This document shows positions 5,717-31,250 of a stretch of 64,000 bases of DNA, piece after piece. The stretch comes from Primulina eburnea. Its lineage: Eukaryota; Streptophyta; Magnoliopsida; Lamiales; Gesneriaceae. The notes beneath the pieces were generated by a model, which saw only the letters and a list, made by a program, of their open reading frames with translations, was not told the DNA's origin and searched no databases. The DNA lies in contig NC_133105.1 of assembly GCF_022965805.1 (NCBI RefSeq), positions 30,954,311 to 31,018,310 on the forward strand, written 5' to 3'. Within the stretch, counting starts at the first letter, position 1, and the number at the start of each line of letters is the position of its first letter. Position numbers and translations under genes: made by a program.

Positions 5717-6639
5717 CCTGTTGTGGGGACCCGGGCTCTAACTCAATTCTTTTGGGATTTAATTGGATCTTTGTTCGAAAATGTGGGTCAAAAATTTGCA
5801 TTTAACATTAATTCAAATGTATAATAAAAGCATGACATATATTTATAATAATTAAACAACATCAGATACATACAAGTCTGTCTAGTACAAAGATACAACT
5901 AATGTTAGAATCTCAAATACAAGTAGTTCAGATCTAGACAAAAACTACTAGTAATCTGCTGCTACACCCGGCATCACCACGCTATCAACTCTCTCTTCCT
6001 CGTCGTGACCCTGATCCTGCCCCACCTGTTGCCATGCACACATACAGACACGACAACAGCCGGATAACTCCGGTGAGAACATATCCCAGTATAAAACATG
6101 GAGGCATGCAATGTAATAATCATGTACAAAAGCATAGCATATTTATCAAGTAACATGTATGTAAATCTAAACATGTAGAAGAATACAAATCTGTATTCAA
6201 CATTTAAATCTTGACTCGACTCGTTTCTAATCTAGGGATCCCGGTGTGAATAAGACGGTCTGTCACCTACCCAACCACTCGAGGCAACGGTACGTCTTAT
6301 TCCTAGACTTCGGTCAACTCTGTATCGAGGGTCTACACATATAGCAAATCTGCTCCTATGCGTCGATACACGGAAACGTCTAGTTTTGGCAAATCTGCCA
6401 ATATCTCCTATCTCAGGACTCGAATATACCTCAATAAATAAGACATTACATAATCAAATGTAATAACAATCTAGTATGTGATTTAGGGAAACTCGTATCA
6501 AATCTAAATCGAGTTGTGCAATCCCAAGACCACATGAATTATACCTTTCTTGTCGAATCGTCGGTCGAAGTCTCGAAGTCGGAATGTCACTCTGTCAAAA
6601 CTAATCTTCTGAAGATGATGAAATGAAGTGTCAATGCAA

Positions 6640-6652
6640 GGTATTTATATAG
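6640..6652 (-). promoter_or_regulatory. TATA box of GypA 5' LTR
   Basis: The minus strand reads CTATATAAATACC in the LTR that would promote transcription of GypA. No sequenced transcript is available to fix the start site. Confidence 0.65.
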
Positions 6653-6698
6653 AATGCCATGTGTCAACATAAAAATCGAAGGTGGCAATTCGCATGCA

Positions 6699-6886
6699 GC
6701 ACCGCGGGTGCGGCAACTCAAGAGCGCGGGTGCGCTGTGCTCACGGCAGCCCTTGCATTTTCTGAAATTCTCGGACCGCGGGTGCGGTGATGTTATTACC
6801 GCGGGTGTGGTGTCTGTTCGCACAATTTCACCAATTTTTATCAATGCACCGCGGGTGCGGTGATGTTATTACCGCGGGTGCGGTGT
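6699..6886 (-). repeat. GC-rich module cluster in GypA LTR (copy 2)
   Basis: Six modules as at 563-750, with one base change in the fourth. They sit in U3, about 50 bases upstream of the TATA box in the sense of the element. Confidence 0.8.
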
Positions 6887-7512
6887 GGCTTCGGCCATTC
6901 CTTTAAAATTCTCATTTTTATATCATACATTCTTACCTCTACAAGTCTAACATCAATGCCAGTTTATAATTCTCGAGCCTTACAATGTTATATTCTTGAG
7001 TTACTTTTGGAAGACTTTATGGGCTAAACTTGGCACAAAATTGTTGTTTTCTACTACCTGTCATCCTCAAACGGATGGACAAACTGAAGTTGTCAATAGA
7101 ACTTTGGGAACACTTTTGCGTGCTATTCTTAAAAAGAACATGGATTGACATTTCTATGTACTTTATTTTGGGGTTGCCTAGGACTAAGAAGGGGTGGGAT
7201 TTTATTTTCGTTGTTGTGGATAGATTCTCTAAGATGGCACATTTTATAGCTTGTCATAAAACCGATGATGCTTCAAACATTGCGGATTTGTTCTTTAGAG
7301 AAGTCGTTAGGTTGCATGGCATGACTAGGAATATTGTTTCTGGTCGCGATGTTAAATTCATGAGTTACTTTTGGAATACTTTATGGGATAAACTTGGTAC
7401 AAAATTGTTGTTTTCTACTACTTGTCATCCTCAAACGGATGGACAAACTGAAGTTGTCAATAGAACTTTGGGAACACTTTTGCATGCTATTCTTAAAAAG
7501 AACTTCGATTGA

Positions 7513-10500
7513 CATTTCTATGGACTTTATTTTGGGGTTGCCTAGGACTAAGATGGGGAGGGATTCTATTTTTGTTGTTGTGGATAGATTCTCTAAGATG
7601 GCACATTTATAGCTTGTCATAAAACCGATGATGCTTCAAACATTGCGGATTTGTTCTTTAGAGAAGTCGTTAGGCTGCATGGCATGCCTAGGACTATTGT
7701 TTCTGGTCGCGATGTTAAATTCTTGAGTTACTTTTGGAAGACTATATGGGCTAAACTTGGCACAAAATTGTTGTTTTCTACTACTTGTCATCCTCAAACG
7801 GATGGACAAACTGAAGTTGTCAATAGAACTTTCAGAACACTTTTGCGTGCTATTCTTAAAAAGAACTTGGATTGACATTTCTATTGACTTTATTTTGGGG
7901 TTGCCTAGGACTCAGAAAGGGAGGGATTCTATTTTTGTTGTTGTGGATAGATTCTCTAAGATGACACATTTTATAGCTTGCCATAAAATCGATGATGCTT
8001 CAAACATTGCGGATTTGTTCTTTTGAGAAGTCGCTAGGTTGCATGGCATGCCTAGGACTATTGTTTCTGGTCGCGATGTTAAATTTTTGAGTTACTTTTG
8101 GAAGACTTTATGGGATAAACTTGGCACAAAATTGTTGTTTTCTACTACTTGTCATCCTCAAACGGATGGACAAACTGAAGTTGTCAATAGAACTTTGGGA
8201 ACACTTTTGCGTGCTATTCTTAGAAAGAACTTGGATTGACATTTCTATGGACTTTATTTTGGGGTTGCCTAGGACTAAGATAGGGAGGGATTCTATTTTT
8301 GTTGTTGTGGATAGATTCTCTAAGATGGCACATTTATAGCTTGTCATAAAACCGATGATGCTTCAAACATTGCGGATTTGTTCTTTAGAGAAGTCGCTAG
8401 GTTGCATGGCATGCCTAGGACTATTGTTTCTGGTCGCGATGTTAAATTCTTGAGTTACTTTTGGAAGACTTTATGGGCTAAACTTGGCACAAAATTGTTG
8501 TTTTCTACTACTTGTCATCCTCAAACGGATGGACAAACTGAAGTTGTCAATAGAACTTTGGGAACACTTTTGCGTGCTATTCTTAAAAAGAACTTTGATT
8601 GAAATTTCTATGGACTTTATTTTGGGGTTGCCTAGGACTAAGAAGGGAAGGGATTTTATTTTCGTTGTTGTGGATAGATTCTCTAAGATGGCACATTTTA
8701 TACCTTGTCATAAAACCAATGATGCTTCAAACATTGAGGATTTGTTCTTTAGAGAAGTCGTTAGGTTGCATGGCATGCCTAGGACTACTGTTTCTGGTCG
8801 CGATGTTAAATTCTTGAGTTACTTTTGGAAGCCTTTATGGGATAAACTTGTCACAAAATTGTTGTTTTCTACTACTTGTCATCCTCAAACGGATGGACAA
8901 ACTGAAGTTGTCAATAGAACTTTGGGAACACTTTTGCGTGCTTTCTTAAAAAGAACTTGGATTGACATTTCTATGGACTTTATTTTGGGGTTGCCTAGGA
9001 CTAAGAAGGGGAGGGATTATATTTTTGTTGTTGTGGATAGATTCTCTAAGATGGAACATTTTATAGCTTGTCATAAAACAGATGATGCTTCAAACATTGA
9101 GGATTTGTTCTTTAGAGAAGTCGTTAGGTTGCATGGCATGCCTGGGACTATTGTTTCTGGTCGCGATGTTAAATTCTTGAGTTACTTTTGGAAGACTTTA
9201 TGGGCTAAACATGGCACAAAATTGTTGTTTTCTACTACTTGTCATCCTCAAACGGATGGACAAACTGAAGTTGTCAATAGAACTTTGGGAACACTTTTGC
9301 GTGCTATTCTTAAAAAGAAATTGGATTGACATTTCTATGGACTTTATTTTGGGGTTGCCTAGGACTAAGAAGGAGAGGGATTCTATTTTCGCTGTTGTGG
9401 ATAGATTCTCTAAGATGGCACATTTATAGCATGTCATAAAACCGATGATGCTTCAAATATTGCGGATTTGTTCTTTAGAGAAGTCGTTAGGTGGCATGGC
9501 ATGCCTAGGACTATTGTTTCTGATCGCGATGTTATATTCTTGAGTTACTTTTGGAAGACTTTATGGGCTAAACTTGGCACAAAATTGTTGTTTTCTACTA
9601 CTTGTCATCCTCAAACGGATGGACAAACTGAAGTTGTCCATAGAACTTTGGGAACACTTTTGCGTGCTATTCTTAAAAAGAACTTGGATTGACATTTCTA
9701 TGTACTTTATTTTGGGGTTGCCTAGGACTAAGAAGGGGAGGGATTTTATTTTCGTTGTTGTGGATAGATTCTCTAAGATGGCACATTTTATAGCTTGTCA
9801 TAAAACCGATGATGCTTCAAACATTGCGGATTTGTTCTTTAGAGAAGTCGTTAGGTTGCATGGCATGACTAGGAATATTGTTTCTGGTCGCGATGTTAAA
9901 TTCATGAGTTACTTTTGGAATACTTTATGGGCTAAACTTGGTACAAAATTGTTGTTTTCTACTACTTGTCATCCTCAAACGGATGGACAAACTGAAGTTG
10001 TCAATAGAACTTTGGGAACACTATTGCGTGCTATTCTTAAAAAGAACTTGGATTGACATTTCTATGGACTTTATTTTGGGGTTGCCTAGGACTAAGAAGG
10101 AGAGGGATTCTATTTTCGCTGTTGTGGATAGATTCTCTAAGATGGCACATTTATAGCATGTCATAAAACCGATGATGCTTCAAATATTGCGGATTTGTTC
10201 TTTATAGAAGTCGTTAGGTGGCATGGCATGCCTAGGACTATTGTTTCTGATGGCGATGTTATATTCTTGAGTTACTTTTGGAAGACTTTATGGGCTAAAC
10301 TTGGCACAAAATTGTTGTTTTCTACTACTTGTCATCCTCAAACGGATGGACAAACTGAAGTTGTCAATAGAACTTTGGGAACACTTTTGCGTGCTATTCT
10401 TAAAAAGAACTTGGATTGACATTTCTATGTACTTTATTTTGGGGTTGCCTAGGACTAAGAAGGGGTGGGATTTTATTTTCGTTGTTGTGGATAGATTCTC

Positions 10501-10783
10501 TAAGATTTCACATTTTATGGCTTGTCATAAAACCGATGATGCTTCAAACATTGCGGATTTGTTCTTTAGAGAAGTCGTTAGGTTGCATGGCATGACTAGG
10601 AATATTGTTTCTGGTCGCGATGTTAAATTCATGAGTTACTTTTGGAATACTTTATGGGCTAAACTTGGTACAAAATTGTTGTTTTCTACTACTAGTCATC
10701 CTCAAACGGATGGACAAACTGAAGTTGTCAATAGAACTTTGGGAACACTTTTGTGTGCTATTCTTAAAAAGAACTTCGATTGA
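7513..10783 (+). repeat. SatIN higher-order repeat 1 (9 monomers)
   Basis: By diagnostic variants the nine monomers run B-C-D-E-F-G-A-G-A. Markers: B has TKMGRDS and KTIW; C has TQKGRDS, KIDDAS and EVARL; D has TKIGRDS and MAHL-stop; E has IPCHKT and LVTK; F has GRDYIF, MPGT and AKHGT; G has [13 protein letters not shown] has MYFIL, MTRN and FWNTL. The period to the next B monomer is 3271 bp. Confidence 0.8.
8484..9329 (+). pseudogene. Longest fused integrase-core frame in the array
   Basis: A 281-codon frame spans an out-of-frame segment plus two integrase cores. It exists because a one-base deletion near 8943 in monomer E cancels the frame shift that normally falls at the monomer junction. 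Both cores have lost the second catalytic Asp (SGRD instead of SDRD). This is a chance product of satellite mutation rather than a gene. Confidence 0.75.
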
Positions 10784-13693
10784 CATTTCTATGGACTTTA
10801 TTTTGGGGTTGCCTAGGACTAAGATGGGGAGGGATTCTATTTTTGTTGTTGTGGATAGATTCTCTAAGATGGCACATTTTATAGCTTGTCATAAAACAGA
10901 TGATGCTTCAAACATTGCGGATATGTTCTTTAGAGAAGTCGTTAGGTTGCATGGCATGCCTAGGACTATTGTTTCTGGTCGCGATGTTAAATTCTAGAGT
11001 TACTTTTGGAAGACTATATGGGCTAAACTTGGCACAAAATTGTTGTTTTCTACTACTTGTCATCCTCAAACGGATGGACAAACTGAAGTTGTCAATAGAA
11101 CTTTGGGAACACTTTTGCGTGCTATTCTTACAAAGAACTTGGATTGAAATTTCTATTGACTTTATTTTGGGGTTGCCTAGGACTCAGAAAGGGAGGGATT
11201 CTATTTTTGTTGTTGTGGATAGATTCTCTAAGATGACACATTTTATAGCTTGCCATAAAATCGATGATGCTTCAAACATTGCGGATTTGTTCTTTAGAGA
11301 AGTCGCTAGGTTGCATGGCATGCCTAGGACTATAGTTTCTTGTCGCGATGTTAAATTCTTGAGTTACTTTTGGAATACTTTATGGGCTAAACTTGGCACA
11401 AAGTTGTTGTTTTCTACTACTTGTCATCCTCAAACGGATGGACAAACTGAAGTTGTCAATAGAACTTTGGGAACACTTTTGCGTGCTATTCTTAAAAAGA
11501 ACTTTGATTGAAATTTCTATGGACTTTATTTTGGGGTTGCCTAGGACTAAGAAGGGGAGGGATTCTATTTTCGTTGTTGTGGATAGATTCTCTAAAATGG
11601 CACATTTTATACCTTGTCATAAAACCGATGATGCTTCAAACATTGAGGATTTGTTCTTTAGAGAAGTCGTTAGGTTGCATGGCATGCCTAGGACTACTGT
11701 TTCTGGTCGCGATGTTAAATTTTTGAGTTACTTTTGGAAGCCTTTATGGGATAAACTTGTCACAAAATTGTTGTTTTCTACTACTTGTCATCCTCAAACG
11801 GATGGACAAACTGAAGTTGTCAATAGAACTTTGGGAACACTTTTGCGTGCTATTCTTAAAAAGAACTTGGATTGACATTTCTATGGACTTTATTTTGGGG
11901 TTGCCTAGGACTAAGAAGGGGAGGGATTATATTTTTGTTGTTGTGGATAGATTCTCTAAGATGGCACATTTTATAGCTTGTCATAAAACAGATGATGCTT
12001 CAAACATTGCGGATTTGTTCTTTAGAGAAGTCGTTAGGTTGCATGGCATGCCTGGGACTATTATTTCTGGTCGCGATGTTAAATTCTTGAGTTACTTTTG
12101 GAAGACTTTATGGGCTAAACATGGCACAAAATTGTTGTTTTCTACTACTTGTCATCCTCAAACGGATGGACAAACTGAAGTTGTCAATAGAACTTTGGGA
12201 ACACTTTTGCGTGCTATTCTTAAAAAGAAATTGGATTGACATTTCTATGGACTTTATTTTGGGGTTGCCTAGGACTAAGAAGGAGAGGGATTCTATTTTC
12301 GCTGTTGTGGATAGATTCTCTAAGATGGCACATTTATAGCATGTCATAAAACCGATGATGCTTCAAATATTGCGGATTTGTTCTTTAGAGAAGTCGTTAG
12401 GTTGCATGGCATGCCTAGGACTATTGTTTCTGATCGCGATGTTATATTCTTGAGTTAGTTTTGGAAAACTTTATGGGCTAAACTTGGCACAAAATTGTTG
12501 TTTTCTACTACTTGTCATCCTCAAACGGATGGACAAACTGAAGTTGTCAATAGAACTTTGGGAACACTTTTGCGTGCTATTCTTAAAAAGAACTTGGATT
12601 GACATTTTTATGTACTTTATTTTGGGGTTGCCTAGGACTAAGAAGGGGAGGGATTTTATTTTCGTTGTTGTGGATAGATTCTCTAAGATGGCACATTTTA
12701 TAGCTTGTCATAAAACCGATGATGCTTCAAACATTGCGGATTTGTTCTTTAGAGAAGTCGTTAGGTTGCATGGCATGACTAGGAATATTGTTTCTGGTCG
12801 CGATGTTAAATTCATGAGTTACTTTTGGAATACTTTATGGGCTAAACTTGGTACAAAATTGTTGTTTTCTACTACTTGTCATCCTCAAACGGATGGACAA
12901 ACTGAAGTTGTCAATAGAACTTTGGGAACACTTTTGCGTGCTATTCTTAAAAAGAACTTGGATTGACATTTCTATGGACTTTATTTTGGGGTTGCCTAGG
13001 ACTAAGAAGGAGAGGGATTCTATTTTCGCTGTTGTGGATAGATTCTCTAAGATGGCACATTTATAGCATGTCATAAAACCGATGATGCTTCAAATATTGC
13101 GGATTTGTTCTTTAGAGAAGTCGTTAGGTGGCATGGCATGCCTAGGACTATTGTTTCTGATGGCGATGTTATATTCTTGAGTTACTTTTGGAAGACTTTA
13201 TGGGCTAAACTTGGCACAAAATTGTTGTTTTCTACTACTTGTCATCCTCAAACGGATGGACAAACTGAAGTTGTCAATAGAACTTTGGGAACACTTTTGC
13301 GTGCTATTCTTAAAAAGAACTTGGATTGACATTTCTATGTACTTTATTTTGGGGTTGCCTAGGACTAAGAAGGGGTGGGATTTTATTTTCGTTGTTGTGG
13401 ATAGATTCTCTAAGATGGCACATTTTATGGCTTGTCATAAAACCGATTATGCTTCAAACATTGCGGATTTGTTCTTTAGAGAAGTCGTTAGGTTGCATGG
13501 CATGCCTAGGACTATTGTTTCTGATCGCGATGTTATATTCTTGAGTTACTTATGGAAGACTTTATGGGATAAACTTGGCACAAAATTGTTGTTTTCTACT
13601 ACTTGTCATCCTCAAACGGATGGACAAACTGAAGTTGTCAATAGAACTTTGGGAACACTTGTGCGTGCTATTCTTAAAAAGAACTTCGATTGA
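10784..13693 (+). repeat. SatIN higher-order repeat 2 (8 monomers)
   Basis: The order is B-C/D-E-F-G-A-G-A'. Compared with block 1, monomer C and D are replaced by one chimera: C-type at its start (TQKGRDS, KIDDAS) and D-type at its end (KKNFD). This accounts for the loss of one monomer and looks like an unequal exchange within paired monomers. The final monomer is A-type at its start and G-type at its end. Confidence 0.8.
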
Positions 13694-16240
13694 CATTTCT
13701 ATGGACTTTATTTTGGGGTTGCCTAGGACTAAGATTGGGAGGGATTCTATTTTTGTTGTTGTGGATAGATTCTCTAAGATGGCACATTTTATAACTTGTC
13801 ATAAAACAGATGATGCTTCAAACATTGCGGATTTGTTCTTTAGAGAAGTCGTTAGGTTGCATGGCATGCCTAGGACTATTGTTTCTGGTCGCGATGTTAA
13901 ATTCTTGAGTTACTTTTGGAAGACTATATGGGCTAAACTTGGCACAAAATTGTTGTTTTCTACTACTTGTCATCCTCAAACGGATGGACAAACTGAAGTT
14001 GTCAATAGAACTTTGAGAACACTTTTGCGTGCTATTCTTAAAAAGAACTTGGATTGACATTTCTATTGACTTTATTTTGGGGTTGCCTAGGACTCAGAAA
14101 GGGAGGGATTCTATTTTTGTTGTTGTGGATAAATTCTCTAAGATGACACATTTTATAGCTTGCCATAAAATCGATGATGCTTCAAACATTGCGGATTTGT
14201 TCTTTAGAGAAGTCGCTAGGTTGCATGGCATGCATAGGACTATTGTTTCTGGTCGCGATGTTAAATTTTTGAGTTACTTTTGGAAGACTTTATGGGATAA
14301 ACTTGGCACAAAATTGTTGTTTTCTACTACTTGTCATCCTCAAACGGATGGACAAACTGAAGTTGTCAATATAACTTTGGGAACACTTTTGCGTGCTATT
14401 CTTACAAAGAACTTGGATTGAAATTTCTATTGACTTTATTTTGGGGTTGCCTAGGACTCAGAAAGGGAGGGATTCTATTTTTGTTGTTGTGGATAGATTC
14501 TCTAAGATGACACATTTTATAGCTTGCCATAAAATCGATGATGCTTCAAACATTGCGGATTTGTTCTTTAGAGAAGTCGCTAGGTTGCATGGCATGCCTA
14601 GGACTATTGTTTCTGGTCGCGATTTTAAATTTTTGAGTTACTTTTGGAAGACTTTATGGGCTAAACTTGGCACAAAATTGTTGTTTTCTACTACTTGTCA
14701 TCCTCAAACGGATGGACAAACTGAAGTTGTCAATAGAACTTTGGGAACACTTTTGCGTGCTATTCTTAGAAAGGACTTGGATTGACATTTCTATGGACTT
14801 TATTTTTGGGTTGCCTAGGACAAAGATAGGGAGGGATTCTATTTTTGTTGTTGTGGATAGATTCTCTAAGATGGCACATTTATAGCTTGTCATAAAACCG
14901 ATGATGCTTCAAACATTGCGGATTTGTTCTTTAGAGAAGTCGCTAGGTTGCATTGCATGCCTAGGACTATTGTTTCTGGTCGCGATGTTAAATTCTTGAG
15001 TTACTTTTGGAAGACTTTATGGGCTAAACTTGGCACAAAATTGTTGTTTTCTACTACTTGTCATCCTCAAACGGATGGACAAACTGAAGTTGTCAATAGA
15101 ACTTTGGGAACACTTTTGCGTGCTATTGTTAAAAAGAACTTTGATTGAAATTTCTATGGACTTTATTTTGGGGTTGCCTAGGACTAAGAAGGGGAGGGAT
15201 TCTAATTTCGTTGTTGTGGATAGATTCTCTAAGATGGCACATTTTATACCTTGTCATAAAACCGATGATGCTTCAAACATTGAGGATTTGTTCTTTAGAG
15301 AAGTCGTTAGGTTGCATGGCATGCCTATGACTACTGTTTCTGGTCGCGATGTTAAATTCTTGAGTTACTTTTGGAAGACTTTATGGGAAAAGCTTGTCAC
15401 AAAATTGTTGTTTTCTACTACTTGTCATCCTCAAACGGATGGACAAACTGAAGTTGTCAACAGAACTTTGGGAACACTTTTGCGTGCTATTCTTAAAAAG
15501 AACTTGGATTGACATTTCTATGGACTTTATTTTGGGGTTGCCTAGGACTAAGAAGGGGAGGGATTCTATTTTTGTTGTTGTGGATAGATTCTCTAAGATG
15601 GCACATTTTATAGCTTGTCATAAAACAGATGATGCTTCAAACATTGCGGATTTGTTCTTTAGAGAAGTCGTTAGGTTGCATGGCATGCCTGGGACTATTG
15701 TTTCTGGTCGCGATGTTAAATTCTTGAGTTACTTTTGGAAGACTTTATGGGCTAAACATGGCACAAAATTGTTGTTTTCTACTACTTGTCATCCTCAAAC
15801 GGATGGACAAACTGAAGTTGTCAATAGAACTTTGGGAACACTTTTGCGTGCTATTCTTAAAAAGAACTTGGATTGACATTTCTATGTACTTTATTTTTGG
15901 GTTGCCTAGGACTAAGAAGGGGAGGGATTTTATTTTCATTGTTGTGGATAGATTCTCTAAGATGGCACATTTTATAGCTTGTCATAAAACCGATGATGCT
16001 TCAAACATTGCGGATTTGTTCTTTAAAGAAGTCGTTAGGTTGCATGGCATGACTAGGAATATTGTTTCTGGTCGCGATGCTAAATTCATGAGTTACTTTT
16101 AGAATACTTTATGGGCTAAACTTGGTCCAAAATTGTTGTTTTCTACTACTTGTCATCCTCAAACGGATGGACAAACTGAAGTTGTCAATAGAACTTTGGG
16201 AACACTTTTGCGTGCTATTCTTAAAAAGAACTTGGATTGA
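13694..16240 (+). repeat. SatIN higher-order repeat 3 (7 monomers)
   Basis: The order is B-C-C-D-E-F-A. Monomer C is duplicated and the G-A-G segment is missing. Monomer B here (13694-14057) is a good representative unit: full 364 bp, open through the whole core in one frame, first Asp (SMDF) and Glu (TEVVN) present, second Asp changed to Gly. Confidence 0.8.
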
Positions 16241-19145
16241 CATTTCTATGGACTTTATTTTGGGGTTGCCTAGGACTAAGAAGGAGAGGGATTCCATTTT
16301 CGCTGTTGTGGATAGATTCTCTAAGATGGCACATTTTATAGCTTGTCATAAAACACATGATGCTTCAAACATTGCGGATTTGTTCTTTAGAGAAGTCGTT
16401 AGGTTGCATGGCATGCCTAGGACTATTGTTTCTGGTCGCGATGTTAAATTCTTGAGTTACTTTTGGAAGACTATATGGGCTAAACTTGGCACAAAATTGT
16501 TGTTTTCTACTACTTGTCATCCTCAAACGGATGGACAAACTGAAGTTGTCAATAGAACTTTTGAGAACACTTTTGCGTGCTATTCTTAAAAAGAACTTGG
16601 ATTGACATTTCTATTGACTTTATTTTGGGGTTGCCTAGGACTCAGAAAGGGAGGGATTCTATTTTTGTTGTTGTGGATAGATTCTCTAAGATGACACATT
16701 TTATAGCTTGCCATAAAATCGATGATGCTTCAAACATTGCGGATTTGTTCTTTAGAGAAGTCGCTAGGTTGCATGGCATGCCTAGGACTATTGTTTCTGG
16801 TCGCGATGTTAAATTTTTGAGTTACTTTTGGAAGACTTTATGGGATAAACTTGGCACAAAATTTTTGTTTTCTACTACTTGTCATCCTCAAACGGATGGA
16901 CAAACTGAAGTTGTCAATAGAACTTTGGGAACACTTTTGCGTGCTATTCTTACAAAGAACTTGATTGAAATTTCTATGGACTTTATTTTGGGGTTGCCTA
17001 CGACTAAGAAGGAGAGGGATTCTATTTTCGCTGTTGTGGATAGATTCTCTAATATGGCACATTTATAGCTTGTCATAAAACCGATGATGCTTCAAACATT
17101 GCGGATTTGTTCTTTAGAGAAGTCGTTAGGTTGCATGGCATGCCTAGGACTATTGTTTCTGATCGCGATGTTATATTCTTGAGTTACTTATGGTAGACTT
17201 TATGGGATAAACTTGGCACAAAATTGTTGTTTTCTACTACTTGTCATCCTCAAACGGATGGACAAACTGAATTTGTCAATAAAACTTTGGGAACACTTTT
17301 GCGTGCTATTCTTAAAAAGAACTTGAATTGACATTTCTATGGACTTTATTTTGGGGTTGCCTAGGTCTAAGAAAGGGAGGGATTCTATTTTTGTTGTTGT
17401 GGATAGATTCTCTAAGATGGCACATTTATAGCATGTCATAAAACCGATGATGCTTCAAATATTGAGGATTTGTTCTTTAGAGAAGTCGTTAGGTTGCATG
17501 GCATGCCTAGGACTATTGTTTCTGATCGCGATGTTATATTCTTGAGTTACTTTTGGAAGACTTTATGGGCTAAACTTGGCACAAAATTGTTGTTTTCTAC
17601 TACCTGTCATCCTCAAACGGATGGACAAACTGAAGTTGTCAATAGAACTTTGGGAACACTTTTGCGTGCTATTATTAAAAAGAACTTGGATTGACATTTC
17701 TATGTACTTTATTTTGGGGTTGCCTAGGACTAAGAAGGGGTGGGATTTTATTTTCGTTGTTGTGGATAGATTCTCTAAGATGGCACATTTTATAGCTTGT
17801 CATAAAACCGATGATGCTTCAAACAATGGGGATTTGTTCTTTAGAGAAGTCGTTAGATTGCATGGCATGACTAGGAATATTGTTTCTGGTCGCGATGTTA
17901 AATTCATGAGTTACTTTTGGAATACTTTATGGGCTAAACTTGGTACAAAATTTTTGTTTTCTACTACTTGTCATCCTCAAACGGATGAACAAACTGAAGT
18001 TGTCAATAGAACTTTGGGAACACTTTTGCGTGCTATTCTTACAAAGAACTTGGATTGAAATTTCTATGGACTTTATTTTGGGGTTGCCTACGACTACGAA
18101 GGAGAGGGATTCTATTTTCGCTGTTGTGGATAGATTCTCTAAGATGGCACATTTATAGCTTGTCATAAAACCGATGATGCTTCAAACATTGCGGATTTGT
18201 TCTTTAGAGAAGTCGTTAGGTTGCATGGCATGCCTAGGACTATTGTTTCTGATCGCGATGTTATATTCTTGAGTTACTTATGGAAGACTTTATGGGATAA
18301 ACTTGGCACAAAATTGTTGTTTTCTACTACTTGTCATCCTCAAACGGATGGACAAACTGAATTTGTCAATACAACTTTGGGAACACTTTTGCGTGCTATT
18401 CTTAAAAAGAACTTGAATTGACATTTTTATGGACTTTATTTTGGGGTTGCCTAGGACTAAGAAAGGGAGGGATTCTATTTTTGTTGTTGTGGATAGATTC
18501 TCTAAGATGGCACATTTATAGCATGTCATAAAACCGATGATGCTTCAAATATTGCGGATTTGTTCTTTAGAGAAGTCGTTAGGTTGCATGGCATGCCTAG
18601 GACTATTGTTTCTGGTCGCGATGTTAAATTCTTGAGTTACTTTTGGAAGACTTTATGGGCTAAACTTGGCACAAAATTGTTGTTTTCTACTACCTGTCAT
18701 CCTCAAACGGATGGACAAACTGAAGTTGTCAATAGAACTTTGGGAACACTTTTGCGTGCTATTATTAAAAAGAACTTGGATTGACATTTCTATGTACTTT
18801 ATTTTGGGGTTGCCTAGGAATAAGAAGGGGTGGGATTTTATTTTCGTTGTTGTGGATAGATTCTCTAAGATGGCACATTTTATAGCTTGTCATAAAACCG
18901 ATGATGCTTCAAACAATGCGGATTTGTTCTTTAGAGAAGTCATTAGATTGCATGGCATGACTAGGAATATTGTTTCTGGTCGCGATGTTAAATTCATAAG
19001 TTACTTTTGGAATACTTTATGGGCTAAACTTGGTACAAAATTGTTGTTTACTACTTGTCATCCTCAAACGGATGGACAAACTGAAGTTGTCAATAGAACT
19101 TTGGGAACACTTTTGCATGCTATTCTTAAAAAGAACTTCGATTGA
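16241..19145 (+). repeat. SatIN higher-order repeat 4 (8 monomers, second type)
   Basis: The order changes here to B/G-C-G'-H-A-G'-H-A. G' has [12 protein letters not shown] and TEFVN; H has KKGRDSIF with SDRDVIF and KTLWAKLG. Classes D, E and F disappear from here to the array end. A one-base deletion shortens the end of the C monomer near 16963. Confidence 0.8.
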
Positions 19146-22054
19146 CATTTCTATGGACTTTATTTTGGGGTTGCCTTGGACTAAGATGGGGAGGGATTCT
19201 ATTTTTGTTGTTGTGGATAGATTCTCTAAGATGGGACATTTTATAGCTTGTCATAAAACACATGATGCTTCAAACATTGCGGATTTGTTCTTTAGAGAAG
19301 TCGTTAGGTTGCATGGCATGCCTAGGACTATTGTTTCTGGTCGCGATGTTAAATTCTTGAGTTACTTTTGGAAGACTATATGGGCTAAACTTGGCACAAA
19401 ATTGTTGTTTTCTACTACTTGTCATCCTCAAACGGATGGACAAACTGAAGTTGTCAATAGAACTTTTGAGAACACTTTTGCGTGCTATTCTTAAAAAGAA
19501 CTTGGATTGACATTTCTATTGACTTTATTTTGGGGTTGCCTAGGACTCAGAAAGGAAGGGATTCTATTTTTGTTGTTGTGGATAGATTCTCTAAGATGAC
19601 ACATTTTATAGCTTGCCATAAAATCGATGATGCTTCAAACATTGCGGATTTGTTCTTTAGAGAAGTCGCTAGGTTGCATGGCATGCCTAGGACTATTGTT
19701 TCTGATCGCGATGTTAAATTTTTGAGTTACTTTTGGAAGACTTTATGGGATAAACTTGGCACAAAATTTTTGTTTTCTACTACTTGTCATCCTCAAACGG
19801 ATGGACAAACTGAAGTTGTCAATAGAACTTTGGGAACACTTTTGCGTGCTATTCTTACAAAGAACTTGGATTGAAATTTCTATGGACTTTATTTTGGGGT
19901 TGCCTACGACTAAGAAGGAGAGGGATTCTATTTTCGCTGTTGTGGATAGATTCTCTAAGATGGCACATTTATAGCTTGTCATAAAACCGATGATGCTTCA
20001 AACATTGCGGATTTGTTCTTTAGAGAAGTCGTTAGGTTGCATGGCATGCCTAGGACTATTCTTTCTGATCGCGATGTTATATTCTTGAGTTACTTATGGA
20101 AGACTTTATGGGATAAACTTGGCACAAAATTGTTGTTTTCTACTACTTGTCATCCTCAAACGGATGGACAAACTGAATTTGTCAATAAAACTTTGGGAAC
20201 ACTTTTGCGTGCTATTCTTAAAAAGAACTTGAATTGACATTTCTATGGACTTTATTTTGGGGTTGCCTAGGACTAAGAAAGGGAGGGATTCTATTTTTGT
20301 TGTTGTGGATAGATTCTCTAAGATGGCACATTTATAGCATGTCATAAAACCGATGATGCTTCAAATATTGCGGATTTGTTCTTTAGAGAAGTCGTTAGGT
20401 TGCATGGCATGCCTAGGACTATTGTATCTGATCGCGATGTTATATTCTTGAGTTACTTTTGGAAGACTTATGTGCTAAACTTGGCACAAAATTGTTGTTT
20501 TCTACTACTTGTCATCCTCAAACGGATGGACAAACTGAAGTTGTCAATAGAACTTTGGGAACACTTTTGCGTGCTATTCTTAAAAAGAACTTGGATTGAC
20601 ATTTCTATGTACTTTATTTTGGGGTTGCCTAGGACTAAGAAGGGGTGGGATTTTATTTTCGTTGTTGTGGATAGATTCTCTAAGATGGCACATTTTATAG
20701 CTTGTCATAAAACCGATGATGCTTCAAACAATGCGGATTTGTTCTTTAGAGAAGTCGTTAGATTGCATGGCATGACTAGGAATATTGTTTCTGGTCGCGA
20801 TGTTAAATTCATGAGTTACTTTTGGAATACTTTATGGGCTAAACTTGGTACAAAATTTTTGTTTTCTACTACTTGTCATCCTCAAACGGATGGACAAACT
20901 GAAGTTGTCAATAGAACTTTGGGAACACTTTTGCGTGCTATTCTTACAAAGAACTTGGATTGAAATTTCTATGGACTTTATTTTGGGGTTGCCTACGACT
21001 AAGAAGGAGAGGGATTCTATTTTCGCTGTTGTGGATAGATTCTCTAAGATGGCACATTTATAGCTTGTCATAAAACCGATGATGCTTCAAACATTGCGGA
21101 TTTGTTCTTTAGAGAAGTCGTTAGGTTGCATGGCATGCCTAGGACTATTGTTTCTGATCGCGATGTTATATTCTTGAGTTACTTATGGAAGACTTTATGG
21201 GATAAACTTGGCACAAAATTGTTGTTTTCTACTACTTGTCATCCTCAAACGGATGGACAAACTGAATTTGTCAATACAACTTTGGGAACACTTTTGCGTG
21301 CTATTCTTAAAAAGAACTTGAATTGACATTTCTATGGACTTTATTTTGGGGTTGCCTAGGACTAAGAAAGGGAGGGATTCTATTTTTGTTGTTGTGGATA
21401 GATTCTCTAAGATGGCACATTTTATAGCTTGTCATAAAATCGATGATGCTTCAAACTTTGCGGATTTGTTCTTTTGAGAAGTCGCTAGGTTGCATGGCAT
21501 GCCTAGGACTATTGTTTCTGATCACGATGTTATATTCTTGAGTTACTTTTGGAAGACTTTATGGGCTAAACTTGGCACAAAATTGTTGTTTTCTACTACC
21601 TGTCATCCTCAAACAGATGGACAAACTGAAGTTGTCAATAGAACTTTGGGAACACTTTTGCGTGCTATTATTAAAAAGAACTTGGATTGACATTTCTATG
21701 TACTTTATTTTGGGGTTGCTTAGGACTAAGAAGGGGTGGGATTTTATTTTCGTTGTTGTGGATAGATTCTCTAAGATGGCACATTTTATAGCTTGTCATA
21801 AAACCGATGATGCTTCAAACAATGCGGATTTGTTCTTTAGAGAAGTCGTTAGATTGCTTGGCATGACTAGGAATATTGTTTCTGGTCGCGATGTTAAATT
21901 CATGAGTTACTTTTGGAATACTTTATGGGCTAAACTTGGTACAAAATTGTTGTTTTCTACTACTTGTCATCCTCAAATGGATGGACAAACTGAAGTTGTC
22001 AATAGAACTTTGGGAACACTTTTGCATGCTATTCTTAAAAAGAACTTCGATTGA
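19146..22054 (+). repeat. SatIN higher-order repeat 5 (8 monomers, second type)
   Basis: The same order as block 4, B-C-G'-H-A-G'-H-A, with a period of 2905 bp from block 4 to block 5 and 2909 bp from block 5 to block 6. Private changes such as the extra T in the B monomer end (frame FENTF) are shared with block 4, indicating block-level duplication. Confidence 0.8.
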
Positions 22055-24203
22055 CATTTCTATAGACTTTATTTTGGGGTTGCCTTGGACTAAGATGGGG
22101 AGGGATTCTATTTTTGTTGTTGTGGATAGATTCTCTAAGATGGCACATTTTATAGCTTGTCATAAAACACATGATGCTTCAAACATTGCGGATTTGTTCT
22201 TTAGAGAAGTCGTTAGGTTGCATGGCATGCCTAGGACTATTGTTTCTGGTCGCGATGTTAAATTCTTGAGTTACTTTTGGAAGACTATATGGGCTAAACT
22301 TGGCACAAAGTTGTTGTTTTCTACTAATTGTCATCCTCAAACGGATGGACAAACTGAAGTTGTCAATAGAACTTTGAGAACACTTTTGCGTGCTATTCTT
22401 AAAAAGAACTTGGATTGACATTTCTATTAACTTTATTTTGGGGTTGCCTAGGACTCAGAAAGGGAGGGATTCTATTTTTGTTGTTGTGGATAGATTTTCT
22501 AAGATGACACATTTTATAGCTTGCCATAAAATCGATGATGCTTCAAACATTGCGGATTTGTTCTTTAGAGAAGTCGCTAGGTTGCATGGCATGCCTAGGA
22601 CTATTGTTTCTGGTCGCGATGTTAAATTTTTGAGTTACTTTTGGAAGACTTTATGGGATAAACTTGGCACAAAATTGTTGTTTTCTACTACTTGTCATCT
22701 TCAAACGGATGGACAAACTGAAGTTGTCAATAGAACTTTGGGAACACTTTTGCGTGCTATTCTTAGAAAGAACTTGGATTGAAATTTCTATTGACTTTAT
22801 TTTGGGGTTGCCTACGACTAAGAAGGAGAGGGATTCTATTTTCGCTGTTGTGGATATATTCTCTAAGATGGCACATTTATAGCTTGTCATAAAACCGATG
22901 ATGCTTCAAACATTGCGGATTTGTTCTTTAGAGAAGTCGTTAGGTTGCATGGCATGCCTAGGACTATTGTTTCTGATCGCGATGTTATATTCTTGAGTTA
23001 CTTATGGAAGACTTTATGGGCTAAACTTGGCACAAAATTGTTGTTTTCTACTACTTGTCATCCCAAACGGATGGACAAACTGAAGTTGTCAATAGAACTT
23101 TGGGAACACTTTTGCGTGCTATTCTTAAAAAGAACTTGGATTGACATTTCTATGGACTTTATTTTGGGGTTGCCTAGGACTAAGAAAGGGAGGGATTCTA
23201 TTTTTGTTGTTGTGGATAGATTCTCTAAGATGACACATTTTATAGCTTGTCATAAAACAGATGATGTTTCAAACATTGCGGACTTGTTCTTTAGAGAAGT
23301 CGTTAGATTGCATGGCATGCCTAGAACTATTGTTTCTGGTCGCGATGTTAAATTCTTGAGTTACTTTTGGAAGACTTCATGTGCTAAACTTGGCACAAAA
23401 TTGTTGTTTTCTACTACTTGTCATCCTCAAACGGATGGACAAACTGAAGTTGTCAATAGAACTTTAGGAACACTTTTGCGTGCTATTCTTAAAAAGAACT
23501 TGCATTGACATTTCTATAGACTTTATTTTGGGGTTTCCTAGGACTAAGAAAGGGAGGGATTCTATTTTTGTTGTTGTGGATAGATTCTCTAAGATAGCAC
23601 ATTTTATAGCTTGTCATAAAATCGATGATGCTTCAAACTTTGCGGATTTGTTCTTTAGAGAAGTCGCTAGGTTGCATGGCATGCCTAGGACTATTGTTTC
23701 TGGTCGCGATGTTAAATTCTTGAGTTACTTTTGGAAGACTTTGTGGGCTAAAATTGGCACAAAATTGTTGTTTTCTACTACTTGTCATCCTCAAACGGAT
23801 GGAAAAACTGAAGTTGTCAATAGAACTTTGGGAACACTTTTGCGTGCTATTCTTAAAAAGAACTTGGATTGAAATTTCTATGGACTTTATTTTGGGGTTG
23901 CCTAGGACTAAGAAGGAGAGGGATTCTATTTTCGCTGTTGTGGATAGATTCTCTAAGATGGCACATTTATAGCTTGGAATAAAACCGATGATGCTTCAAA
24001 CATTGCGGATTTTTTCTTTAGAGAAGTCGCAAGGTTGCATGGCATGCATAGGACTATTGTTTCTGGTCGCAATGTTAAATTCTTGAGTTACTTTTGGAAG
24101 ACTTTATGGGCTAAACTTGGCACAAAATTGTTGTTTTCTACTACTTGTCATCCTCAAATGGATGGACAAACTGAAGTTGTCAATTGAACTTTGGGAACAC
24201 TTT
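22055..24203 (+). repeat. SatIN higher-order repeat 6, incomplete
   Basis: Begins B-C-G' as in blocks 4 and 5, then has three less typical monomers mixing H-, C- and G-like variants. The last, partial monomer has a stop at the position of the first residue after VVN, and is cut at 24203 by the GypB-outer LTR. Confidence 0.75.
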
Positions 24204-24883
24204 TGTAATAGCCGAGCCCGGTGTACGGTACGGTTTTAGTTTTATGTGTTTATTGGGTTTTATGATTTAGAAGATTTGAGTTGTGTTATGGGTTATAGTT
24301 TAGTTGGTATTATTGTTTGTGGCTTGGTTGTTGTATTAGATGTTGTTGGTTGCGTCGTTTCAGCGTTGCAGATTGATTTTAGTTGCTTTGGATTGCTTCT
24401 TGGCCGAAGCTGTACCGCACCCGCACTCATTGTAGGGACTGCACCCGCGGTCTCATTTATTGGATTTTGGGAGTTTGGCCGTGGCATCACCGCACCCGCG
24501 GCAGTGCAAGGACCGCACCCGCGGTGAGACCGCACCCGCGGTATTTTCAGCACCGCACCCACGGTCATCGTGCATGGATTTTAATTTGGTTGGCCGAAGG
24601 CATAGCGCACCCGTGGTGCTTGTGGCAGCGCACCCGCGGTCTTGTATTATTGAGGTATGGGCGAAGCTTTAAGTTGCTTTTTGGTTGAGTTGACTTCACT
24701 TTTCACCTTTCCTTTCCTCCATTTTCGAGATTTCTCTCTAGAAACAAGGGTTTCCTTCATTTCATTTCATTTCCTAGCTTTGATTCTTGGATTTTTTTGG
24801 ATTTCCGAGTTGAGATCGAGCTTCTACGTGGTGAGAGGAAGCTAAGGTAAGTTTTTGGTTGAGTTCTATCATGGTGTTGGAAT
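24204..24883 (+). repeat. GypB-outer 5' LTR, first part
   Basis: Begins TGTAATAGCCGAGCCC like the two GypB-inner LTRs. It is interrupted after 680 bases by the GypB-inner insertion and resumes at 40436. It carries diverged GC-rich modules (24408-24640), but the TATA box seen in GypB-inner is replaced by an unrelated string. The five bases before it, ACTTT, belong to SatIN. Confidence 0.9.
24408..24640 (+). repeat. GC-rich modules in GypB-outer LTR
   Basis: Eight or so copies of ACCGCACCCGCGGT-like units, several with single-base changes. The number and spacing differ from GypB-inner, showing that the cluster turns over within the family. Confidence 0.75.
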
Positions 24884-25084
24884 TGTAATAGCCGAGCCCT
24901 GTGTACGGTACGATTTAAGTTTCGTATGTTATTTGGGTTATGTGAGTAGATGTTTAGAGTTGTGTTTTGGGCCATAGTATTATTGATTATTATTGTTCTT
25001 GAGGTGTTAGTTGTTGTTGGTTGTTCGTTTCAGAGTTTCGGATCGATTTTGGTTGGTTGATTTTTGTTCATTGCCGTAGCAAGA

Positions 25085-25290
25085 GTGCAACAGCGGTGTT
25101 AGAGGAGTGCCCCCGCGGTGTACTGTGCAGATTTTAGAGTTGGAGGGCCGTAGCATCACCGCACCCGCGGTGTGTACCGCACCCGCGGTGCTTGCAGTGC
25201 CGCACCCGCGGTGTTAGTGGTTCAGGATTTTTGTGGAGTGCCGTGAGCTCAGCGCACCCGCGGCCCTTGTGTTGGCGCACCCGCGGTGGA
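25085..25290 (+). repeat. GC-rich module cluster in GypB-inner 5' LTR
   Basis: Five clear and two degraded copies of CACCGCACCCGCGGTG. The last copy ends 13 bases before the TATA box. The same module is in the GypA LTRs although the rest of the two LTRs cannot be aligned. Confidence 0.82.
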
Positions 25291-25302
25291 GGTATGGGCG
25301 AG

Positions 25303-25313
25303 ATATTTATACC
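25303..25313 (+). promoter_or_regulatory. TATA box of GypB-inner 5' LTR
   Basis: ATATTTATACC directly downstream of the GC-rich modules. The same string is at 39275-39285 in the 3' LTR. Confidence 0.6.
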
Positions 25314-26472
25314 TTTTTGGAGTGGTTAGCCATCACTTTACCTTTTCTTTCCCTCTCATTTCCGATTTCCTCTCTTTTTGCAAGGGTTTTCTACCATTTC
25401 TTTTGTTCCCTATCTTCAATCCAAGCTTCTTTTCGACGATTCGAGTTGAGATCGATGTTCTCCTTGGTGCTAGGAAGCTTAGGTAAGCTTTTGGTGCGAT
25501 TCTATTAAGGTTTTGAGTTAAGGGTTGTCTTGGGTTTGATGTTTTGATGGTTTAATGGATTATTTGACTTGAGTTTTTGGATATAGAGTTGATGTTGGTG
25601 TTGTTTATGGATTATTGTTGTAGGTGGTGTACCAAGAGTAAGATTCAAGGTGTTATTGTGGTTTGTAAGTGGAATTTCATTCCTTTGCTCACATGATGTT
25701 ATATGTATTGTGTTTCAAAGGTTTTAATGTGTTATTCCCTTCATTTGATTCATGTTTATGTATTGATTTCATTGATATGTATATTGGAGGCATTGATGTC
25801 TCACTATTGTTAAAAATGGAATACAAGAGAAAAGATAGAGATTGCGAAACGACGGCTTTAAATGCTATTCAGAGTTCAAATGTTTTATTGGATTGATTAA
25901 TCATAGTCAGAGCATTACATGCAATTAGTTGATCAACGACCATAGGCTTTTATCCCTCACAGTTATCGATTTATATCGATGGGATTTTTGCAACCACAGA
26001 CAGAGATACTATTGATATCAATCCAACCAGAGAAAAGAGAATACCATCTTATTGCTGTCTTATTGATATGCTATTGCTACAGTTATTGCTACAGTATTTA
26101 TGTTTCAGAGTTGATGGTATTTATGATTTCAAAGTCATGTTTTACAGAGTATACTATGTATCATTGCTATGTAAGAGTTCCACTTGCTGAGATTTATTCT
26201 CATTTCAGTTATTTCATGTGATGCAGATCAGAGTAGCGGCCCGGGACGTTGACTGTGGACAGGGGGTCATATGCATACACCGTTGGAAGGAAGATTTTGG
26301 CATGATCATAAGAATGATGTTTTGTATTTTGCTTCGTCATTTAAATGATCATGTATTATTATTTTGTAAAGATGTTTAAAGAATCTTATTTTGAAACTCC
26401 TTCCATATTTTAAAGAAAATTTTAATTTCCGCTGCGTATTTTATTTAAAGAGGTCAGAGGTGTCACATTTAG

Positions 26473-26485
26473 TGGTATCAGAGCC
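26473..26485 (+). other. GypB-inner primer binding site
   Basis: TGGTATCAGAGCC, five bases after the 5' LTR; complementary to the 3' end of plant initiator-Met tRNA. About 120 bases of leader follow before the gag ATG. Confidence 0.92.
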
Positions 26486-26603
26486 GTGTTCTTCGGACCA
26501 ATGCATATGACTTCGTCTACTTTCAACTGTCCGGGTATGTTTTCTTGCATCTATCCATTGTTATATATTGATATGTCTTTTGTGAGCCATTGTAGAGTAG
26601 AGG

Positions 26604-28301
26604 ATGCCACCTAAGAGGAAAGCAGTAGAGGGTGAGGATAGTTTTTCCTCGAGAGTTGTCGATGAGTTCGGCAAGTTGCATAAAGAGCAGGCCAAGGTCC
26701 ACAGTGAGCAGATCCAGCAGTTGCTCCGATTGCAAGGAGCAGGTCAGGGCAGAGGTCAAGTGAGAGGCCAAGTTGCTCAGGCTGTTGGCACTGATGCCGT
26801 CTTTTCTGCTTTCAAGAGGATGGATCCGCCGGAATTTTCAGGGAGCACCGATCCTTTAGTTGCTGTCGAGTGGGTCAAGGCTTTAGAGGCGATCTTCGAT
26901 CATCTCCACTACGAGGACAGAGACCGTATCAACTGTGCTGTATTCATGTTGGTTAAAGCTGCACGCATTTGGTGGAATGCGACCAAAGTTGGAGTTGATG
27001 TCTCGACGCTGAAGTGGTCAGAGTTTACAGACTTGTTCTATGACAAGTATTTCCCCGATGCACTTCGAGCGAGGAAGGTTACGGAGTTCTTGGAGCTTCG
27101 ACAGGGGAGCTTGAACGTTGATGAGTATATTCTGAAGTTTGAGGAGGGTTGCTTGTTTGCTCCGTACATTGCATCCAACGACAAAGATAAAGGCGCTCAT
27201 TTCATTCGAGGCCTTAGATCTGAGATTCGTCGTGATATCAACATGTCCAAGGCCGTGACTTTCAAGGAGATCGTGTCCAAAGCTTTGTTGGCCGAGCAGG
27301 ATGAGAAGGACATCGCCAGGGAGAGGCAAGAGAGGCATCAAGCTATTGCTCAGAGAGGCCAGGGTTCTAATCAGAGGGGCAGGGATCGTTTCAAGGGCAA
27401 GGGCAAGATGGAGTCGAGTCCTAGACATCCGCCAGTTCCAGTTGATCTCGAGAAGCCACTTTGCCCTAAGTGTGGCAAACATCATCGAGGAGAGTGCAGA
27501 CTTGGCACTCATTCTTGTTACCGTTGTGACACGGCAGGCCACGTTTCCAGGAATTGTCCAAGTGGAGCTAACCAAGGGAAGGTGCAGGGTCGCATCTTTT
27601 CGAGGACCAAGGAAGGTATTAATTATGATTCTTCTGTGATCTCTAGTGCTATTTTAATTTCAGACAGAGTAGCTACTACTTTGATTGATACTGGTGCTAC
27701 TCATTCTTTTATGTCTGAATTGTTTTTGAGATCTTTGGGTATAGTTCCTTCTGTTATTCCCCTCCGGTTCAATGTTGTTTTGCCTTCGGGAGATGTCTTG
27801 TGCCCGACATCTATTGTGTATGCATGCCTTGTTCGTATTGATGATAGAGAGGTCTTTGCTGATTTGATTGTGATCCCGATGGTTGCCTTTGATGTTATTC
27901 TTGGCATGGATTGGCTTTCAACTTACCGTGCAGTGATCGATTGCGTTGCTAAGACGGTGACTTTTGCAGATGATAGCAATAAGGGAGGAGTTCTCGCCAC
28001 TGCAGGTACTTCGCTGGTCCTTCCTTTTATTTCTTGTCTTGAGGCTGAGAGATTGCTGTGTAGAGGTTGCGATGGTTTTCTTGCTTCTATTGTGGATGTG
28101 GATGGTTTGGTTAAGTTGAATATTGATGATATTGATGTTGTGAGGGAGTTTGCCGATGTGTTTGAGGATGATATTCCGGGTTTGCCGCCGGACAGAGATG
28201 TGGAGTTCGTTATCGATTTAGCTCTAGGTACGGTTCCTATTTCTAAGGCTCCGTATAGGATGGCCCCTACCGAGATGAAGGAGTTGAAGACGAAGTTGTA
28301 G
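26604..28301 (+). pseudogene. GypB-inner gag-protease
   Basis: A 565-codon open frame from ATG (MPPKRKAVEG). Residues about 70-240 are the gag capsid-like region. Two zinc-binding clusters follow: CPKCGKHHRGEC and the classical knuckle CYRCDTAGHVSRNC at 305-318. The aspartic protease active site is LIDTGATHSF with D362. The frame ends at a TAG (28299-28301) at the protease-RT border, and RT continues in the same frame directly after it, so the stop interrupts one gag-pol polyprotein. Gag could still be made from this copy; pol could not without readthrough. CAG-to-TAG mutation is the likely origin. Confidence 0.93.
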
Positions 28302-29276
28302 GATCTTCTAGACAAGGGTTTTATTCGACCGAGTTCTTCGCCTTGGGGAGCTCCGGTTCTATTTGTTAAGAAGAAAGATGGTTCTTTGCGGCTGTGTATC
28401 GACTACAGAGAGCTCAACAAAGTGACTGTCAAGAACAAGTATCCGTTGCCACGGATTGATGATCTATTTGATCAGCTTCATGGTGCTACTGTATTTTCGA
28501 AGATTGATCTTCGGTCTGGCTACTATCAGTTGAAGGTTAGGGAGTCCGATATCCCTAAGACGGCGTTCAGGACCAGGTATGGTCACTATGAGTTTCTCGT
28601 GATGTCTTTTGGTCTGACCAATGCCCCTTCAGTCTTCATGGATCTGATGAACCGTGTGTTCAAGACGTTCTTGGATAGCTTCGTCATTGTCTTCATCGAC
28701 GAAATCCTGATCTATTCCAAGACCAGAGAGCTTCATTCAGAGCATCTCAGAGTTGTGCTTCAGTTGTTGAGAGAGAGGAGGCTATTTGCCAAGTTGAAGA
28801 AGTGCGAGTTTTGGTTGGATCAGATTTCTTTTCTAGGCCATGTCGTCTCGAGGGATGGGATAGCTGTTGATCCAGTGAAGATAGAGGCGATTCAGAAGTG
28901 GCCTATTCCTACCACTGTCTCAGAGGTACGCACTTTCCTTGGTTTGGCGGGTTATTATCGTCGTTTCATTTCAAATTTTTCCAAGATTGCCCTGCCATTG
29001 TCCAATCTGACGAGGAAGACTGTGAAGTTCGAGTGGTCCATTGACTGCCAGAGTGCATTTCAGGAGTTGAAGGATAGATTGACGACAACTCCTGTTCTTT
29101 CATTGCCCAGTGGTTCAGAGGATTTCGTTGTCTATACCGATGCGTCGAAGAAAGGCCTTGGTGCAGTGCTGATGCAGCGAGGTAAGGTCATTACCTATGC
29201 TTCTCGCCAGCTGAAGGATTACGAGAGGAATTATCCGACGCATGATTTAGAGCTGGCAGCTGTGGTTTCGCCTTGA
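28302..29276 (+). pseudogene. GypB-inner reverse transcriptase-RNase H, N-terminal part
   Basis: Continues in the frame of gag after the TAG. It carries normal gypsy RT blocks ([26 protein letters not shown]) but the active site reads FIDEIL: the second of the two catalytic aspartates (codon at 28701-28703) is glutamate, which is expected to abolish or strongly weaken polymerisation. RNase H begins near YTDASKKG. A one-base deletion at about 29268 shifts the frame and creates the stop at 29274-29276; the frame starting 29273 carries on with the rest of RNase H. Confidence 0.92.
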
Positions 29277-29562
29277 AGATCTGGAGACATTACTTGTATG
29301 GCGAAAAGTGTGAGATCTTCACGGACCACAAGAGTTTGAAGTATCTGTTTTCCCAGAAAGAGCTCAATATGCGACAGAGGAGGTGGTTAGAGCTTGTCAA
29401 AGACTATGATGTGACTATCAGTTACCACCCAGGGAAGGCGAATGTTGTGGCCGATGCGTTGAGCCGTAAGTCAAGTTCTTCCTTGAGTTCTTTGATTCAG
29501 AGGCCATTGTTGATGGATTTGCAGAGAGAGGAGATTACTTTGGTAGTTCCGGGGACTATTGC
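29273..29562 (+). pseudogene. GypB-inner RNase H C-terminal part, cut by GypC
   Basis: Encodes the end of RNase H ([11 protein letters not shown], then [17 protein letters not shown]) in a frame shifted relative to the preceding part. The coding sequence is cut at 29562 by the LTR of GypC, with ATTGC at 29558-29562 as one duplication copy. It resumes at 37349. Confidence 0.9.
29558..29562. other. Target-site duplication of GypC, left copy
   Basis: ATTGC here and at 37344-37348 flank GypC exactly and fix its LTR ends as TGTGGGG and TTACA on the plus strand. Confidence 0.9.
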
Positions 29563-30198: not shown

Positions 30199-30258
30199 GA
30201 ATAAGACGTCACTGGCTGTCACCTACCCAACCACTCGGGGCGACTGTACGTCTTATTC
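30199..30258 (-). other. Inverted repeat in GypC LTR
   Basis: Arms GAATAAGACGT (30199-30209) and ACGTCTTATTC (30248-30258), 38 bases apart. The surrounding ~90 bases are clearly related to 100-190 of the GypA LTR, whereas the U3 parts of the two LTRs differ. The second LTR copy is near 35896-35955. Confidence 0.65.
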
Positions 30259-31233: not shown

Positions 31234-31250
31234 TTATATATATATATATC
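31234..31250 (-). promoter_or_regulatory. TATA tract of GypC LTR
   Basis: An alternating TA run at the expected place just downstream (element sense) of the GC hairpins. The run differs by two bases in length from the other LTR (36931-36945). Confidence 0.5.

Follow-up and report, generated by a model that had tools for sequence, protein, structure and literature searches.

A satellite-type array matching the integrase core of a Ty3/gypsy retrotransposon in Primulina eburnea

Among tandem repeats derived from transposable elements, terminal repeats and other non-coding parts prevail as sources, according to the accessible text of one review (PMC9659126), and satellites can also arise from gag or pol domains, according to that of another paper (PMC12628747). 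The CRM1TR and CRM4TR arrays of maize, as described in the accessible part of PMC3648361, are derived wholly from one segment of a Ty3/gypsy element and remain close to an extant parent; CRM4TR islands are parted by assembly gaps or by intervening sequences that include nested long terminal repeat (LTR) elements. Here we analyse a tandem array in a 64-kb stretch of the Primulina eburnea genome (contig NC_133105.1; the whole stretch is called the window below). Like the maize arrays, it is related throughout to one Ty3/gypsy segment with a close living relative. The maize units consist of LTR and untranslated region (about 1.37–1.39 kb in CRM4TR), whereas the unit here is 364 bp long, corresponds to integrase coding sequence and contains neither LTR nor untranslated region.

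Structure of the array and source of its unit

The array occupies positions 6985..24203 on the plus strand, as the original prediction had stated together with its count of 46 full monomers of about 364 bp; both figures proved exact. Tandem Repeats Finder reported a single array at 6985-24205 with a period of 364, 47.4 copies and 94% matches. Cutting at a fixed phase gave 46 full monomers, 361-365 bp in length and oriented alike, with a cut monomer of 159 bp on the left and another of 338 bp on the right, the final two bases of the right piece being assignable equally to the start of the adjoining LTR. The first full unit lies at 7144..7507 (plus strand), and its phase begins at the integrase residues IDISMDF. 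Pairwise identity between monomers averaged 95.0% (range 91.2-99.7%), and identity to the consensus averaged 97.0%. The units run head to tail over 17.2 kb with no interruption, and elsewhere in the window monomer matches were only 13-29 bp long. A degenerate pattern spanning the monomer junction matched exactly at 34 places in the window, where 100 shuffles gave an expectation of 0. The same pattern was found in neither viral contigs nor prokaryote genome contigs, as expected for a plant repeat. A check of dinucleotide periodicity gave weak signals only, and a search of the window for tRNA genes at bacterial settings reported none. The array is well formed and of satellite type, as judged from this one array in the window.

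Translation of the consensus gave 121 residues without a stop (IDISMDF...ILKKNL) that read as an integrase core, and a 291-residue open reading frame (ORF) within the array matched Pfam rve with E=5.2e-14. The consensus protein was searched against other proteins and the best 120 of 2534 matches were considered, the candidates being about 400-1270 residues long owing to the length of the query. Closest in sequence among the matches listed were two gag-pol proteins, P0010 of P. eburnea and P0012 of P. huaijiensis. Each aligned end to end without gaps and was identical to the consensus at 118 of its 121 residues; only positions 8 and 67 of the consensus differed from both. P0013 and P0014, also from P. 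eburnea, showed six differences each, and all four Primulina relatives contained one core per protein. Taken by itself, this retrotransposon similarity points to a host in Primulina or close to it. The monomer corresponds to residues 902-1022 of P0010, which include the Pfam rve match (904-997), while neither H2C2 (the zinc finger, 827-884) nor SH3_Tf2-1 (1068-1116) falls within it. The alignments to P0010 and P0012 place the whole unit within one element, and on these domain limits the unit reads as an integrase core and little else; the predicted exclusion of zinc finger and C-terminal domain held.

The parent had also been predicted to be neither GypA nor GypB, two elements in the window that are described below. 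This was upheld: compared over the integrase region, the two share only 35-37% amino acid identity with the Primulina relatives, and the best match to these relatives in the window beyond the array was 46%. Occurrence of monomers inside complete elements had been named as an observation that would count against the original interpretation. They were seen there only in the trivial sense that each parent-like gag-pol protein has one copy. Viral contigs searched with the consensus protein yielded five pattern matches, none of which was confirmed.

The protein search with the consensus also gave matches of another kind. P0001 scored 427 bits, above the single-core level, compared with 257 bits for P0010. 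P0001, P0002, P0003 and P0006-P0008 are gene models from Senna, Sinapis, Paspalum and Lolium with at least two large partial copies of the integrase region, and they are probably merged neighbouring elements. Recurrent tandems of 121 residues within proteins were considered as a candidate and dropped: in the 18 proteins read by eye, the repeats were much larger units.

Monomer variation and loss of coding function

The 46 monomers carried 151 variants, 82 of them private to a single monomer, and 52 shared variants (each present in at least three monomers) defined monomer classes. Of all spacings from 1 to 23 monomers, a spacing of eight gave the greatest likeness: identity was 0.967 at lag 8 and 0.944-0.955 at the remaining lags. 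None of 5000 permutations of the monomer order gave a value as high. The pattern was clearest in monomers 25-46, with a lag-8 identity of 0.976. Monomers 1-24 were less regular (0.968 at lag 8, against 0.949-0.960 at other lags up to 16). At a 3% cut, monomers 25-40 (15872..21685, plus strand) formed two successive eight-monomer higher-order units with the classes ABCJGAJG and then KBCJGAJL, and monomers 41-44 started a third. The lag-8 pattern indicates exchange or duplication of several monomers at a time after the classes had formed. Unequal crossing-over or conversion may have been the route, and circular intermediates are also possible. The last two full monomers and the right partial monomer (23140..24203, plus strand) were divergent, their best identity to any unit being 0.967-0.970, and the only other unit as divergent was monomer 18 (0.967). 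Units at the left end were not divergent (best identity 0.987), so that divergence is raised at the right end only. In our reading, the array has a natural edge close to its right end, whereas on the left it was cut in its interior.

Position 67 of the consensus, which we take to be the second catalytic Asp (D2) in the relatives, as we presume the identities of the other catalytic residues, reads Gly. The spacing of 35 residues between D2 and the catalytic Glu was checked and holds in the consensus. In the full monomers the codon at position 67 was GAT in 14, GGT in 31 and TGT in one, and D2 is thus lost in 32 of the 46. The Asp at position 6 (D1) is kept in 35 and the Glu at position 103 in all 46. 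Thirteen monomers keep the complete triad, but 12 of these contain an in-frame stop; in the other 33 the triad is broken. Monomer 35 (19506..19869, plus strand) is the sole full monomer with an intact triad and no in-frame stop, and it has neither flanking domain. Neither the array consensus nor its unit has the full set of features of a functional D,D35E integrase, D2 being mostly gone and the HHCC zinc finger and C-terminal domain lying outside the unit. Since all four Primulina relatives have Asp at position 67, the Gly probably arose within the array and then spread.

Synonymous changes made up 30 of 140 (0.214), compared with 0.207 expected under the same mutation spectrum, and distinct substitutions were spread over the three codon positions as 45/49/48. 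Variation in the array therefore looks neutral. The 364-bp unit also shifts the reading frame at every junction, and ORFs of about 170 residues, as a consequence, typically start out of frame. On the plus strand there were 20 stop-to-stop ORFs of at least 165 residues, the longest being 291. A 170-residue junction ORF, the first part of which is an out-of-frame translation of the satellite, was used as a protein query, and the best 120 of 6494 matches were considered. The top score was 239 bits, and 119 of the 120 covered 68-79% of the query. The remaining one, P0198, reached a coverage of 97%, although on reading its initial 50 residues proved unrelated. Among these 120 matches, 10 of which were read, there was no sign of a satellite-derived protein. 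Plant gene annotation usually masks satellite-like DNA, and this negative result is therefore weak evidence. The array appears from its sequence to be non-coding and no longer an enzyme. Calling the unit a catalytic core, as the original prediction did, is too strong for a sequence with the triad broken in most copies and neutral-looking variation.

Flanking elements, origin and parent lineage

Both ends of the array pass into LTR termini. On the left, the array adjoins the outer terminus of part of the GypA 5′ LTR (6137..6984, minus strand), which is 98.7% identical to window positions 1-848. On the right it adjoins the start of the LTR of a second element, GypC (24204..24883, plus strand); this LTR begins TGTAATAGCC. 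This LTR is followed directly by GypB (24884..40435, plus strand; LTRs at 24884-26467 and 38851-40435), and GypC-like LTR sequence restarts near 40455. The two GypC pieces have continuous offsets, which suggests one LTR split by a later insertion of GypB; they are 68.8% and 86.5% identical to the GypB LTR. The bases flanking GypB, GGAAT and AGAAT, are alike at four of five positions.

Divergence (K) between the LTRs was 0.0131 for GypA (over 848 bp, cut by the window start) and 0.0186 for GypB. At the rate of 1.3e-8 substitutions per site per year given for tomato in the accessible part of PMC13310191, GypA would be about 0.5 million years old and GypB about 0.7 million years old. Provided that insertions created both of its ends, the array predates GypA and GypB. 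Insertion of GypA and GypC into the array is suggested at each end by the abutting termini rather than proven. Because both ends are LTR termini, 17 kb is probably a lower bound, and the array has probably been cut by LTR elements from a greater length.

We consider it very probable that the array arose by tandem duplication of an integrase segment followed by expansion and homogenisation, and that LTR elements inserted later into what is now a non-coding satellite. The founding event would have been a tandem duplication in a chromovirus-like Ty3/gypsy element akin to P0010 and P0012, affecting roughly 364 bp that span just the integrase core. An illegitimate join may have linked the start of the core to a site about 120 codons downstream, leaving the frame shifted, with perhaps 2-4 bases common to its two sides. 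The array consensus reads AAGAACTTGGATTGAC at the junction, and P0012 has K-N-L-K on the downstream side and P-W-I-D on the upstream side; the two sides would share at least TG and, with a suitable Pro codon, CTTG. For the growth and homogenisation that followed, unequal exchange, gene conversion and the reinsertion of circular copies are all candidates, and the eight-monomer repeats would have come from the same process. Other LTR retrotransposons would have inserted afterwards and now form both visible ends. Several points weigh against this account. Satellite status was judged from one array inside a 64-kb window, the junction microhomology was read from protein and array sequence rather than parent DNA, and no satellite sequence was seen beyond GypA or GypC within the window.

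Another source of the array could be a short tandem repeat already present in the integrase gene of a variant family and later expanded. Nine satellites of Lathyrus sativus, derived from Ogre elements, took this route of expanding element-borne repeats according to the accessible text of PMC7004042. The Lathyrus repeats, however, lie downstream of gag-pol in that account and need not break proteins, whereas an element with a frame-shifting 364-bp duplication in its integrase should be disabled. Each of the four Primulina relatives has a single core and no tandem, and the multi-match proteins such as P0001 and P0002 are, by eye, duplications of larger units. A pre-existing repeat therefore seems improbable to us. 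We give still less credence to an assembly artefact, whether collapse or false tandem extension. Collapse could have shortened the true array, but false extension should yield near-identical copies, and more than half of the variants are private. The ordered pattern of distinct monomer classes and the clean passage of both ends into LTR termini also speak against an artefact. Least probable of all is that the array has been kept for a truncated integrase, for example one that inhibits the parent element in a dominant manner. The long plus-strand ORFs and the still recognisable domain would suit such a role. Against it stand a synonymous fraction at the neutral expectation, loss of D2 and of the triad in most monomers, and frame shifts at the junctions such that long ORFs typically begin out of frame. 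The junction-ORF matches argue likewise, since all but one of the 120 cover only 68-79% of the query and the exception, on reading, is not satellite-derived.

The lineage of the parent was considered from the tails of related proteins. According to Neumann and co-workers, in the accessible parts of PMC3059260 and PMC6317226, groups A and B of the CRM clade are without the type II chromodomain at the integrase C-terminus, while a CR motif occurs in group A. A type II chromodomain motif of our own design was present in the GypA and GypB controls and in none of 95 C-terminal tails (80 of them at least 60 residues long), where the tail-picking pattern misses GypA and GypB and merged gene models account for some of the tails. 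It was likewise absent from 240 proteins, many of them fragments (the best 120 matches from each of the two protein searches). A GP-x-TR segment, a C-terminal likeness to CRM tails, was found in 71 of the 80 longer tails, and a stricter pattern in 14 of the 95. Pfam listed no chromodomain for GypA or GypB, and the silence of Pfam on chromodomains therefore carries little weight. In a protein search with a grass relative, none of the best 120 matches listed carried a lineage label. These tails lead us to lean, tentatively, towards a CRM-clade chromovirus as the parent.

It is a further step, and one that we regard as rather unlikely, to see in the array an island of recent, possibly centromeric satellite from a CRM integrase core, with eight-unit repeats resembling those of alpha satellite. 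On that view, a retrotransposon that targets centromeres would have provided a new satellite out of its own enzyme gene. The accessible part of PMC5818461 reports that CRM elements with the CR motif may also be interstitial and that putative centromeres of Coffea rich in CRC are without tandem repeats, both of which weigh against a centromeric reading. The location of CRM groups B and C is itself disputed between PMC3059260 and PMC3605345, as far as their accessible text goes.

Other repeats were observed in the window. Within the pol region of GypB lies an element in minus orientation (29560-37350) with direct copies at 29560-31654 and 35256-37350, both of 2.1 kb and 98.7% identical to each other, which are presumably its LTRs. 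Between them the list of ORFs (at least 150 amino acids) gives only a gag-like ORF at 33933-34889, which suggests a relative of GypA that is non-autonomous and has gag alone. By eye, several copies of a CCGCACCCGCGG-type box occur both in the GypA-family LTR, on its own strand, and in the GypB/GypC-family LTR (6700-6890 and 24410-25300); the two LTR families otherwise look different. Further right, 56784-60761 is one ORF of 1325 residues reading like a Ty1/copia polyprotein, with a relative of 78-79% DNA identity at 50234-53202. Blocks at 45287-47283, 52655-54998 and 60776-64000 are 98.8-99.1% identical and joined in differing orders, as nested LTRs or a recent segmental exchange would be expected to produce.

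Comparison with known satellites

No satellite built from an integrase core appeared among the papers listed by the literature searches, where most subscription papers were out of reach, and no satellite study of Primulina or Gesneriaceae was listed there. In the accessible main text of the review PMC9659126 the word 'integrase' is absent. The array is an unusually clear example of a satellite derived from enzyme-coding sequence. A unit made of a conserved enzyme domain indicates that a satellite can form without a non-coding source and without repeats already present in the element. The array is also a favourable case for study: living relatives come close to giving its founder sequence, and its flanking elements are datable. 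That centromeric retrotransposons renew centromeric satellites is an idea raised in the accessible part of PMC3648361. Should the parent prove to be a CRM element and the array centromeric, such renewal could be tested directly in Primulina.

The Ogre-derived satellites of Lathyrus sativus share with this array an origin in Ty3/gypsy retrotransposons, as far as the accessible text of PMC7004042 goes, but they are linked to short tandem repeats downstream of gag-pol, whereas the source here is an enzyme domain that is normally single-copy. The NicCL3 array of Nicotiana tomentosiformis, in the accessible account of PMC3351487, is likewise tandem and possibly includes part of a Ty3/gypsy element; its unit, however, is 2.2 kb long with only a small gypsy-like region. 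Coding-derived satellites are covered in the accessible text of PMC9659126, from the gag ORF (E3900 of rye, and Aegilops speltoides), the Tnp2 transposase region (Chenopodium) and LINE ORF2 (rodents). These too go back, wholly or in part, to a stretch of a transposon gene, but the genes are different. The proteins P0010 and P0012 share 118 of 121 core residues with the array, but have a single core flanked by zinc finger and SH3 domains and a complete triad. The source had been predicted to be unusual, and with regard to the integrase core this stands; satellites from coding segments, on the other hand, are already in print (PMC9659126, PMC12628747, from their accessible text). The source of the P. 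eburnea array is thus unusual, but not unprecedented.

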